Part shown: piece by piece, positions 12,013-19,041 of the stretch
How positions within the stretch are numbered: the stretch's first letter is position 1
Layout: each line of letters starts with the position of its first letter
Assembly: GCA_944364615.1 (NCBI GenBank)
Contig: CALVWF010000002.1
Location: 186,001 to 250,000 of the forward strand
Length of the DNA stretch: 64,000 nucleotides
Source of the DNA: an uncultured Clostridia bacterium
Lineage (GTDB): Bacteria; Bacillota; Clostridia; Christensenellales; CAG-314
Reading direction: 5' to 3'
The notes under the pieces: model-generated
What the model saw: only the letters and a program-made list of their open reading frames with translations
The model's database searches: none
Told to the model about the DNA's origin: nothing
Translations under genes and position numbers: made by a program

Positions 12013-12033
12013 AATTTGTTTACGGGTGTTTTT

Positions 12034-12609
12034 ATGTACATTTCAATGTTGGCAATTGCCGTCGGATTGTCCGCCGACGCATTTGCGGTAACGTTGTCGG
12101 ACATGCTGCGCTACGGCAATCTTCCCCTTAAAAAGAAAATGCTGTTGCCTGTGTTTTTCGGAATGTTTCAGGGTATAATGCCCGTTATAGGATTTTTGGT
12201 GGGCGAATTGCTGGGCGAAGTTATTCAGCGCATCGACCATTGGGTAGCGTTCGCGTTGCTGGCTTTTCTGGGAATAAAGATGATTGTCGAAAGCATCAAA
12301 GAGACAAAACAGAAAGAGGAAGAAAAGCAGTGCGAGTGCCGGTTGAGTTGGGGCGAAATGATTACACAGTCTTTTGCCACAAGCATTGACGCAATGGCAG
12401 TGGGTATAACTTTGGCAATAGTTGTCAATCTTCCCATTTATGTTTCCGCTCCCGTTATTGCGGTCGTAACTTATTTGTTGTGCCTTTTAGGCGTGGGTAT
12501 AGCCTCCAAATTGGGCAAATTTCTGAAAAACAAAGCGGGAATAGTGGGAGGAGTCATCCTCGTTGCCATCGGAACAAAAATTCTGATTGAACATCTTATC
12601 GGAGCGTAA
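12034..12609 (+). CDS. mntP: Manganese efflux pump MntP
   Basis: A 191-residue membrane protein with two repeated halves. GLSADAFAVTLSD near residue 10 and SFATSIDAMAVGITLA near residue 115 are the duplicated acidic motifs of MntP (DUF204). The ATG at 12034 is preferred to an upstream TTG. Only about 65 bases separate it from divIC, and no yybP-ykoY manganese riboswitch is visible. It is directly followed by an acyltransferase gene. Confidence 0.92.
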   Translation: MYISMLAIAVGLSADAFAVTLSDMLRYGNLPLKKKMLLPVFFGMFQGIMPVIGFLVGELLGEVIQRIDHWVAFALLAFLGIKMIVESIKETKQKEEEKQCECRLSWGEMITQSFATSIDAMAVGITLAIVVNLPIYVSAPVIAVVTYLLCLLGVGIASKLGKFLKNKAGIVGGVILVAIGTKILIEHLIGA

Positions 12610-14548: not shown

Positions 14549-15472
14549 TTACTGGTTGTAAATATCGTTTTCGTGAGGTTGTTTCTGAGTCTGTTCAAGA
14601 TAAAGCCGTGTGATGTCGTTCAGTATTTCCATTGAATCGAAACTCTTCGGGTATATGATGTTTATTTCTCTTATCATACTGAGGTTTGCAATGGGTACGG
14701 CTTTCAGTTTGCCTTTGGCAATATCGCTTGTCAGCAGACTTTTTGCAAGAATGGATACGCCGAATCCGTGTTTGACAAGTCCTTTAATGGTATTGACCGA
14801 ATCGATTTCCATCAGAATGTTGAAATTGTCAATGCTTTCGTTGTTGCTTTTCAGATGTGACTCGAACAGTTGTCTCGTTCCCGAAGTGGAGGGGCGCAGA
14901 ATAAGATTTTCTTTTTTGAGTTCGTCAAGCGTAACTATACTTTTTTTCGCAAAGGGGTGCTTGTTCGATACCACCAACATAAGGTTGTCGGTTGCAAGCA
15001 ACACCGAATTGAACCCCGGATTTTGCATTCTTCCGTCGATAATTGCAAAGTCAATCATATAGTTTTTTAACTTACTATAAAGATTTGTTATCGTGTCAGA
15101 AATTAAAGTTATATTTGTTCCCTTTTTCTCGGCGCACAAAGTGGCAAGAATTTCCGCTATCATACCCATTTCGGCAGACTGTGTGACGCCTATCGTAAAG
15201 TGCTTTACGCGCTTTTTGCTGTCTTTCAGATCTTCCACCAATGCTTGATACAATGCGTCGGCGCGCTTTGCAAATTTGACGATTAACTTGCCGTCTTCGG
15301 TAATTTTAAGTCCGCTGTCCGTTCTGTTGAAGATTTTAGTGCTGAATTCCTGTTCAAGAGCCTTGATGTGCTGAGATACTGCCGGTTGCGTAAGGTTTAG
15401 TTTTTCTGCCGCCTGCGTGATATTTTTCGTTTCGGATACGGCAAGCAAAGTATAAAGTTTCTGATTGAGCAT
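14549..15472 (-). CDS. LysR-family transcriptional regulator
   Basis: A 307-residue LysR regulator. The N-terminal helix-turn-helix includes NITQAAEKLNLTQPAVSQHI, and an effector-binding domain follows from about residue 90. The ATG at 15472 is chosen because ggggag precedes it. It is divergent from a CPA2 antiporter gene. A T-N11-A box lies 35 bases upstream of its own start and recurs before the second antiporter, so it probably controls itself and both antiporters. The effector is unknown. Confidence 0.92.
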   Translation of the reverse strand: MLNQKLYTLLAVSETKNITQAAEKLNLTQPAVSQHIKALEQEFSTKIFNRTDSGLKITEDGKLIVKFAKRADALYQALVEDLKDSKKRVKHFTIGVTQSAEMGMIAEILATLCAEKKGTNITLISDTITNLYSKLKNYMIDFAIIDGRMQNPGFNSVLLATDNLMLVVSNKHPFAKKSIVTLDELKKENLILRPSTSGTRQLFESHLKSNNESIDNFNILMEIDSVNTIKGLVKHGFGVSILAKSLLTSDIAKGKLKAVPIANLSMIREINIIYPKSFDSMEILNDITRLYLEQTQKQPHENDIYNQ

Positions 15473-15504
15473 TTTACATTTTCTCCCCTGAAAATAACGT
15501 ATGC

Positions 15505-15540
15505 TTATAATGATAGTGCAAAACATTATTTTACATTATG
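15505..15540. promoter_or_regulatory. LysR operator, copy 1 (ATAATG-N11-CATTAT)
   Basis: A T-N11-A dyad (15507-15529) with a further CATTATG at 15534-15540. The 36-base block matches 17460-17495 at 31 of 36 positions. It lies between lysR and the first antiporter and abuts the antiporter -35 element. Confidence 0.8.
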
Positions 15541-15618: not shown

Positions 15619-17079
15619 ATGAAACTTTATCAATTATATTCACAGTTCGACACTCCCACAGTTGTTTTGATTTCGCTTGCCGTTATTCTGGCAAGCGGTT
15701 TTCTGTTGACCAGAATTACCAAACTGTTACATCTCCCCAACGTCACCGGGTATATATTAGCCGGTATTCTTCTCGGTCCCGACCTGTTGGGAGCGGTATC
15801 CCCCGAAATCATTTCGGGAATGAGTTTTGTCAGCGACATTGCGCTGGCGTTCATTGCCTTCGGCGTAGGCAAGTTTTTCAAACTGGAACGGCTTAAAAAG
15901 ACCGGCTGGCGTGTAATAGTCATTACCTTGATGCAATCTGTCACAGCGGGAATCCTCGTTACACTTGCTGTTAAATGGATATTCGGGCTGTCGTGGTCAT
16001 TTTCCTTATTGTTGGGTGCCATTGCAACGGCTACCGCTCCCGCAAGTACAATGATGACAATCAATCAATATCATGAGCGCGGAGAGTTTGTGGACACTCT
16101 GTTGCAGGTAATCGCGCTGGACGATGTAATCTGTCTGCTGTTGTTCAGCGTTGTGGCTGCGGTGGTGGGAGCGGAAAACGGCGGAAATGCCCTATCCGTT
16201 ACAGATATAGTATTGCCTGTCGTCTACAACATCGGAGCAATCGCTTTGGGCGCAGTGTGCGGATTTGTGACTGGTCCTATGATGAAGCGCCGTAAAAAAG
16301 ACAACAAACTTATAATAGTAACGGCCGTACTGTTTGCAATTGCCGGTGTGTGCAGCGTATTTGGCGTATCGCCGTTGCTTTCCTGTATGGTGTACGGCGC
16401 AGTGTATATAAATTTCACCAAGGACAAGGAACTTTATCATCAGATCAACCATTTTACTCCGCCTATTATGACGATATTCTTTGTATTGTCGGGACTTAAT
16501 TTCGATCTGAAGTCATTTGCCTCAATAGGGCTGATAGGTCTGACCTATGTGATTGTAAGAATAATAGGCAAAATGGGCGGTGCATTCCTCGGTAATGTGA
16601 TAACACATCAGAGCAAAGAGATAAGAAATTACCTCGGATTCGCTCTTGTTCCTTCCGCAGGTGTCGCTATAGGTCTGGCGTTTTTGTCTCAGAGAATATT
16701 GCCTGAGGAAACGGGCAATCTGCTTATGACTATTATTCTCGCTTCGGCGGTAGTTTACGAGTTGATCGGGCCTGTGTGCGCGCGGTTTGCTCTGTTCCAT
16801 TCCGGATGTATAAAGCCCGCCACCGAACAGACAACGGAAAATGTAATCGTTGACTCTTCGCCCGTTGCGGACACCGTAAATTCAATTGAAACAGCAGTCG
16901 CTGCAACGGCAAACGCCGTGGCTGATGTCGAAATGGCAGGTGAAGCAGGTGGTACGTTTAGCGACAAAACGTCAGTGCCCAGTAATGTCAAACAGTCGGA
17001 CAGCAGTGGCGCCGATACCCGAACGGAAGGTTCGGCAGGCATTGTAACGTTGATTTACAAAAACAATTATAAAAAATAG
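15619..17079 (+). CDS. CPA2-family cation:proton antiporter, copy 1 (DD motif)
   Basis: A 486-residue Kef/NapA-type exchanger with about 12-13 membrane segments over residues 15-400. ATATAPAS near residue 136 is the unwound TM4 motif and ALDDV gives Asp168-Asp169, the ion-binding pair of electrogenic CPA2 exchangers. The last ~85 residues form an Ala/Thr/Ser-rich hydrophilic tail ending in a GIVTL...NNYKK element. It lacks KTN/TrkA nucleotide-binding domains. No strong Shine-Dalgarno sequence precedes the ATG. It probably exchanges Na+ or K+ for H+ under LysR control. Confidence 0.88.
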   Translation: MKLYQLYSQFDTPTVVLISLAVILASGFLLTRITKLLHLPNVTGYILAGILLGPDLLGAVSPEIISGMSFVSDIALAFIAFGVGKFFKLERLKKTGWRVIVITLMQSVTAGILVTLAVKWIFGLSWSFSLLLGAIATATAPASTMMTINQYHERGEFVDTLLQVIALDDVICLLLFSVVAAVVGAENGGNALSVTDIVLPVVYNIGAIALGAVCGFVTGPMMKRRKKDNKLIIVTAVLFAIAGVCSVFGVSPLLSCMVYGAVYINFTKDKELYHQINHFTPPIMTIFFVLSGLNFDLKSFASIGLIGLTYVIVRIIGKMGGAFLGNVITHQSKEIRNYLGFALVPSAGVAIGLAFLSQRILPEETGNLLMTIILASAVVYELIGPVCARFALFHSGCIKPATEQTTENVIVDSSPVADTVNSIETAVAATANAVADVEMAGEAGGTFSDKTSVPSNVKQSDSSGADTRTEGSAGIVTLIYKNNYKK

Positions 17080-17459: not shown

Positions 17460-17495
17460 TTATAATGTTAGTATAAATCATTATTTTACTTTATG
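17460..17495. promoter_or_regulatory. LysR operator, copy 2 (ATAATG-N11-CATTAT)
   Basis: The dyad at 17462-17484 and the flanking TTTTAC-N-TTATG block repeat copy 1 with five differences, at nearly the same distance from the downstream start codon (85 against 90 bases). Confidence 0.8.
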
Positions 17496-17568: not shown

Positions 17569-19041
17569 ATGAAGTTATACGAAATTTACTCACAGTTTGA
17601 TATGCCCACGGTAGTTTTAATCTCGCTTGCCATTGTTCTGGCAGGCGGTTTTCTGCTGTCGAGAGTTACCAAATTGTTGCATCTTCCGAATGTGACGGGG
17701 TACATACTTGCAGGGGTACTGATGGGACCGTGCGTGTTTGGGGTAATACCGCCCGACATCATTACGGGTATGGAATTTGTCAGCGATGTGGCGTTGGCAT
17801 TTATTTCCTTTGGCGTAGGCAAGTTTTTTAAAGTGGAGCGCCTTAAACGCACAGGCTGGAAAGTAATCGTAATCACTTTGATGCAATCGTTGCTTGCAGG
17901 CTTGCTGGTAACCTTTACCGTAAAACTGTGTTTCGGCTTTTCGTGGGATTTTTCCGTACTGCTCGGATCAATCGCAATGGCAACCGCGCCCACAAGTACG
18001 ATGATGACCATTCATCAGTATCACGCACGCGGTGACTTCGTGGATATCTTGTTGCAGGTTATCGCGTTGGACAACGTCATCTGTCTGTTTGTGTTCAGTA
18101 TCGTAACAGGCATTATGGGCGCCGAAGCAATAGGTTTTGCGGATGTGGCAATGCCCGTTTTGTACAATTTAGGCGCAATTGCTCTGGGCGTTGTGTGCGG
18201 ATTTATTACGGGTCCGATGATCAGACACCGTAAGCAGGACAACAGACTTATAATCGTGATCGCGGTTCTGATTGCAATTGCAGGGGTGTGCAGTATGCTC
18301 GGCGTATCTCCGCTTCTCGCCTGCATGGTTTACGGCGCGGTGTACATCAACTTCACTAAGGACAAGGAACTGTATCACCAGATAAATCACTTCATGCCTC
18401 CCATAATGACCATATTCTTTGTACTGTCGGGGCTTAAACTTGATCTTAATTCACTTGCCGCGGTAGGCGCGGTAGGGCTAGTGTATGTCGCTGTCCGTAT
18501 AGTGGGCAAGTTGGGCGGTTCATATCTGGGCAATCTCATTACCCGTCAGCCTCCGGTTATACGAAAACATCTCGGTTTTGCCCTGATACCTTCGGCAGGG
18601 GTGGCTATAGGTCTTGCCTTTCTTGCACAACGTATACTGCCGGAAGAAACGGGAAATTTGCTGATGACGATAGTTTTGTCTTCGTCGGTACTGTACGAAC
18701 TTATAGGCCCCGTAAGCGCGCGAATCGCTTTGTTCCGTTCAGGCTGTATAAAACCTTATACTCCCGAACCTGAAACGGAGAACGTAATTGCCGACGCCGT
18801 ACCCGTGCGTCTTGAAACTGCCGATACTGCAAAAACTTCACCGTTGACGTCGACAGTTGTTGAAAGTGCCGCAGCAAATGCAGCGGTAACGGATGTTGCT
18901 GTCGACAATACGAACATGAGCGATTTCAACTCTGTTTCGCAAAACGCTGCTCAGTCAGCGGAAAAGAGCGCCAAAGACGATCGCCATGAAGGTGCGATAG
19001 GTATTGCAACTCTGTTTTGTAACAACAACTTTAAAAAGTAG
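17569..19041 (+). CDS. CPA2-family antiporter paralogue, copy 2 (DN motif)
   Basis: A 490-residue tandem paralogue of the preceding antiporter, colinear and highly similar through residue 400. The TM4 motif ATAPTS is kept, but the TM5 pair reads Asp168-Asn169 (gac-aac) instead of Asp-Asp. In NhaA and NapA the second Asp is the essential carboxylate. The C-terminal tail is long and diverged from copy 1 except for the terminal GIATL...NNFKK. It may have altered stoichiometry, act as a channel-like or regulatory subunit, or be inactive. It is served by its own LysR-operator promoter. Confidence 0.86.
   Translation: MKLYEIYSQFDMPTVVLISLAIVLAGGFLLSRVTKLLHLPNVTGYILAGVLMGPCVFGVIPPDIITGMEFVSDVALAFISFGVGKFFKVERLKRTGWKVIVITLMQSLLAGLLVTFTVKLCFGFSWDFSVLLGSIAMATAPTSTMMTIHQYHARGDFVDILLQVIALDNVICLFVFSIVTGIMGAEAIGFADVAMPVLYNLGAIALGVVCGFITGPMIRHRKQDNRLIIVIAVLIAIAGVCSMLGVSPLLACMVYGAVYINFTKDKELYHQINHFMPPIMTIFFVLSGLKLDLNSLAAVGAVGLVYVAVRIVGKLGGSYLGNLITRQPPVIRKHLGFALIPSAGVAIGLAFLAQRILPEETGNLLMTIVLSSSVLYELIGPVSARIALFRSGCIKPYTPEPETENVIADAVPVRLETADTAKTSPLTSTVVESAAANAAVTDVAVDNTNMSDFNSVSQNAAQSAEKSAKDDRHEGAIGIATLFCNNNFKK

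Follow-up and report, generated by a model that had tools for sequence, protein, structure and literature searches.

Why does a gut bacterium possess a tandem pair of sodium/potassium-proton exchanger genes, one of which has an asparagine in place of the normally essential ion-binding aspartate? This question arises from the window, the whole 64,000-nucleotide stretch of clostridial DNA that we analysed. In cation/proton antiporters (CPAs), the Asp at motif position 7 is regarded as the single indispensable residue, and the identity of the proton carriers is disputed between both Asp residues of transmembrane helix 5 (TM5) and one Asp together with a Lys. Of 6597 CPAs, 94% have Asp at position 7, and electrogenic exchangers are marked by Asp at both 6 and 7 together with Lys at 8 (PMC6181914). 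Copy 1 (15619..17079, + strand) has this canonical arrangement, with D168-D169 and the Lys, whereas copy 2 (17569..19041, + strand, 490 residues) reads D168-N169 with K314 retained.

Translation of both genes confirmed this difference, first noticed in an earlier note, as ALDDV, encoded from 16114, in copy 1 and ALDNV, encoded from 18064, in copy 2, where the Asn169 codon AAC at 18073..18075 (+ strand) stands in place of the family Asp of position 7. The residue lost is indeed the second, normally essential Asp, because in a phmmer alignment 'aldnvicl' of copy 2 sits under 'VIDDVLGL' of NapA, aligning N169 with D157 of the solved structure. The membrane cores, which the note had called near-identical, share 74% identity (69% over the whole protein). 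A third, distant homologue is encoded elsewhere in the 1.69 Mb source genome.

Both copies belong to the CPA superfamily, matching PF00999 (Na_H_Exchanger) far above the cut-off (copy 2: 4.4e-37, 128.3 bits against a gathering cut-off of 26.2), although neither reaches the curated cut-off of 238.3 of the CPA2 subfamily model TIGR00932 (63 bits for copy 2, 75.9 for copy 1). CPA2 proteins are told from CPA1 by the lack of Glu at position 5 and by Lys at position 8, some having Arg there (PMC6181914); copy 2 has V164 and K314. Copy 1 follows the Asp-Asp-Lys rule of electrogenic CPA2 proteins, whereas copy 2, with D-N...K, departs from it. Copy 2 also differs from Kef proteins, which have Gln-Asp in TM5 and a C-terminal RCK domain, in having Asp-Asn and a disordered tail devoid of Pfam domains. 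Its AlphaFold model (pLDDT 81.6, with a disordered low-pLDDT tail after about residue 411) has the NhaA/NapA fold, matching inward-facing NapA (5bz2) with a Z of 41.6 and an rmsd of 3.1 over 373 residues, and KefC D156N (PDB 9emb) with a Z of 30.9. Copy 2 is a CPA2-fold protein, neither CPA1, given V164 and K314, nor Kef.

The loss of the second Asp is conserved within the genus, sampled here as two species, the source genome and its nearest relative in the comparison, Candidatus Limihabitans stercoravium (L033, seemingly identical with genome G001). In the latter, the gene order matches that of the window (LysR regulator, copy 1, copy 2), and orthologous copy 1 is Asp-Asp (DD) and copy 2 Asp-Asn (DN) in the face of saturated synonymous change; the restoration of DD in relatives, which the earlier note had named as the sign of a random mutation, is not seen in this true orthologue. 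In a first tree, the duplication is older than the species split, the stem branch of copy 2 (0.32) is longer than that of copy 1 (0.13), and the terminal branches are alike. Core dN between orthologues is 0.07–0.085 for copy 2 and 0.06–0.07 for copy 1, with dS saturated; judged by these substitution rates, strong purifying selection now acts on each of the two. Since the tandem pair and DN are found in both species, DN became fixed between the duplication and the species split and has persisted from then on. We rejected chance mutation and an assembly error as causes, DN being present in an independent assembly of the second species and recurring elsewhere.

Among the 396 genomes searched in the order, the DN motif occurs only in this genus, three other pattern matches being unrelated genes. 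Uniqueness to the genus, true within the order, fell when the search was extended to the class and further relatives, which revealed DN antiporters in G509 (L062), G810 and G846 (L063, L093), G1069 (L107), G834 (L079) and G1091 (L119, L124). This count is a lower bound, as the class-wide pattern demanded Val or Ala at residue 165 and missed the window's own gene because Ile stands there. In a tree of 73 proteins, a sample in which DN is over-represented, relatives of DN matches having been sought, the nine DN proteins need six changes, five of them forced by well-supported branches; the placement of the long-branched L079 is unsure. By gene neighbourhood, the subfamily divides into LysR-linked, MgtC-linked and PII-like-linked branches, with DN in each, and most DN genes keep the operon partner (MgtC or PII-like) of their DD relatives. 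The recurrence of DN across the wider clostridial CPA2 subfamily is new. Because DN is kept in the sister species and has at least five origins in related bacteria, it looks from these comparisons like a selected variant, not a random mutation.

The neighbourhoods of the DN genes elsewhere show further features. In G509 (L128:5783-12989, G509:C24), the DN antiporter and MgtC genes adjoin divergent TrkH, TrkA and KdpD/KdpE-like genes, which points to K+ as the ion for this relative only. In G1091 (L130:6906-10313, G1091:C11), two tandem DN copies follow directly on a PII-like gene, with no DD neighbour. A PII-like small-protein gene accompanies the antiporter across that whole branch (L008, L009, L011, L014, L015, L069-L073, L075, L116, L118, L121, L140 and others); one such partner gave a P-II match, and the protein is probably a ligand-sensing regulator of the adjacent antiporter. 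A literature search for PII-like-linked CPA2 antiporters found nothing relevant.

Position 169 is Asp in 74/74 core relatives with DD and Lys, a set picked for DD, and across all aligned rows only Asp and Asn occur there, with no instance of Ala, Gly, Ser or Glu. Other motif positions are preserved: positions 1–4 (ATAP), D168 (position 6) and K314 (position 8; 18508..18510, + strand) are the same in both copies, K314 is invariant in the alignment, and both D168 and K314 are retained in all DN proteins that cover them. Nor is there general relaxation of the DN proteins, save in the divergent L079 and, mildly, in L119/L124; L062 and L107 depart from strongly conserved residues at 169 alone, which argues against general decay.

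We compared the surroundings of the site at 225 positions conserved in 13 near relatives, 43 of them in TM4/TM5. Copy 2 has altered 13 of these and copy 1 seven, with 8/13 against 1/7 falling in TM4/TM5; the hypergeometric P of 0.0006 for the clustering in copy 2 is only indicative, because the region was picked after the data had been seen. The TM4 crossover segment (17968..17994, + strand) bears the copy-2-specific changes A134S, T137M and A142T. A134S was rejected as a DN marker, Ser also occurring at 134 in several DD relatives. A common set of compensating changes across DN lineages was likewise not found, co-changes differing between them save that three have lost P196. This Pro (copy 2 numbering), kept in 73/74 core DD proteins and intact in copy 2, has become Ser, Ala and Ser in three DN lineages, a possible co-change.

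A naive reading would take copy 2 for dead, because Asn at position 7 inactivates AtNHX1 (D185N; PMC10421325) and abolishes the K+ density of KefC, whose D156N mutant otherwise keeps the structure of its ion site (PMC11150392). We favour instead, at a probability of roughly 40%, that copy 2 has been kept as a transporter whose coupling is altered, with D168 and K314 carrying the exchange and N169 serving as an amide ligand; of the possibilities that the earlier note had raised, altered coupling is the best fit. What speaks for it over a dead copy is the purifying selection, the repeated origin, the replacement by Asn exclusively, the retention of D168 and K314, and the existence of DN genomes in which no close DD paralogue turned up. 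The reading also draws on the intact conserved positions of L062 and L107, the operon partners kept by most DN genes, the K+ cluster around the G509 gene and the clustering of copy 2 changes in TM4/TM5. In such a re-tooled site, with the position-7 carboxylate changed to an amide, activity would rest with the charged pair D168/K314. The carboxylate of D168, the amide oxygen of N169 and oxygens of TM4 would together bind a monovalent cation (K+ or Na+); this would break the salt bridge between D168 and K314 and make K314 release the only exchanged proton. An electrogenic exchanger of two protons for one cation would thereby become a 1:1 or weakly coupled one, the mirror image of the Gln-Asp site of KefC, where Q155/D156 gives a precedent for coordination by an amide plus a carboxylate (PMC11150392). 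Transport by copy 2, its ion, its stoichiometry and the roles given to D168 and K314 are all things we infer here. Counted against this reading are the dead position-7 Asn mutants, the 94% prevalence of Asp, the differing co-changes between DN lineages, and the report that K300 of NhaA is not essential for electrogenic transport (PMC5427271). The broader proposal that natural DN CPA2s are repeatedly evolved working exchangers, their ion/proton site moved off position 7 and onto the Asp of position 6 and the Lys of TM10, is more tentative, with the odds against it.

The arrangement of the pair bears on the main rival. In both species, an identical 17-base block, CATTATTTTACWTTATG, stands about 70–90 bases ahead of each copy, in the window at 15524..15540 (copy 1) and 17479..17495 (copy 2) on the + strand, each overlapping the -35 element of a predicted promoter. 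In the window the block has exactly two occurrences (0.04 expected) and no others at up to 2 mismatches; each of the two genomes likewise has exactly two, one upstream of either copy, and no others at up to 1 mismatch; the earlier note's single operator for both copies is thus borne out as an operator-like site, and the copies are probably co-regulated. A divergent LysR-family regulator (14549..15526, - strand, PF00126/PF03466) is a candidate for binding this block. Its listed start overlaps the block; a conserved start, MLNQKLYTLL, near 15472 is probably the real one. Hungatella, Lachnospiraceae and others also keep a LysR gene beside the antiporter, and in Hungatella and other Clostridia that carry a single DD copy at this place it is divergent. 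Folding the four upstream regions to a consensus yielded no usable covariation. Upstream of the antiporter cluster, the window also encodes an MntP-type manganese efflux pump (12016-12609).

The two proteins further have a C-terminal peptide in common in both species, as judged by alignment: in copy 2, GIATLFCNNNFKK (19000..19038, + strand) forms the conserved end of a fast-evolving, disordered tail. Its copy 1 counterpart lies at 17038-17076, and the peptide is GIxTL...NNFKK-like in both; elsewhere the tails are only ~30% identical, and the end peptide may be a partner-binding or targeting signal.

CPA proteins are dimers, as established for NapA, KefC and NHA2. Copy 2 could therefore be a non-transporting partner that dimerises with copy 1 and lowers or tunes its exchange, with N169 mimicking a permanently protonated Asp, D168-K314 holding the fold and co-regulation setting the ratio. 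This account would draw on the tandem arrangement, the common operator-like site, the same C-terminal peptide, the faster stem branch of copy 2 and the intact ion site of KefC D156N, and it is the main rival because the engineered Asp-to-Asn mutants of relatives are inactive. We consider it unlikely on balance, though a serious contender: the DN genomes G834, G1069 and G1091 yielded no close DD paralogue, the last having its two tandem DN copies, so that the regulatory-subunit role suggested in the earlier note cannot, as an obligatory one with a DD partner, be general.

Distinctly less probable is that copy 2 carries no exchanged cation and is a uniporter or leak, handles another substrate, or is a membrane sensor whose state a partner protein reads. 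A neutral amide at position 7 beside a paired D168-K314 would leave a less negative site, T137M and A142T change the crossover segment of TM4, and DN also arises in the PII-like- and MgtC-linked branches; against this, ATAP, D168 and K314 are unchanged between the copies, and the Pfam search found no DN-specific new domain. That copy 2 is an ageing redundant duplicate heading for loss, with DN a tolerated dead-site mutation, is the least probable of these readings, for although its stem is faster after duplication and Asp to Asn needs a single base change, its core dN/dS is far below 1 with saturated dS, DN and the operator-like site are kept in both species, and the strongly conserved sites it has lost beyond those lost by copy 1 are A142 only, plus A110 in one species.

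If copy 2 does transport with altered coupling, working DN exchangers of the CPA2 type would contradict the rule of the essential position-7 carboxylate, and the natural loss of exactly this Asp, with the other Asp and the Lys kept, would offer a ready test of the dispute over proton carriers; alternatively, DN would reveal non-transporting antiporter partners that evolved repeatedly. We know of no DN protein that has been assayed, and a literature search, thin on subscription journals, found no report of a natural DN CPA. The window supplies a test pair: next to its DN copy stands a normal paralogue whose core is 74% identical and whose operator-like site is the same.

Among known systems, the electrogenic CPA2 exchangers of the TtNapA type (Asp-Asp with Lys) resemble copy 2 in their fold, Asp at position 6, Lys at 8 and lack of Glu at 5, whereas copy 2 has Asn at 7 and ATAP in TM4 (ATSV in NapA) at ~21% identity. 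The K+/H+ exchangers of the KefC type (Gln-Asp with Lys) are likewise CPA2 proteins with Lys at 8 and an ion site of one amide and one carboxylate, but in copy 2 the order of the two is swapped, the RCK domain is absent and TM4 has no LSST. Electroneutral CPA1 proteins such as MjNhaP1 and AtNHX1 (Asn-Asp with Glu/Arg) also have one Asn and one Asp in TM5; copy 2 reverses their order and has V164 instead of Glu at 5 and Lys instead of Arg at 8. The KefC D156N laboratory mutant (PDB 9emb) has the fold and Asn at the same position, but it was engineered from a Gln-Asp protein and has no K+ bound, whereas copy 2 is natural and keeps Asp at position 6.
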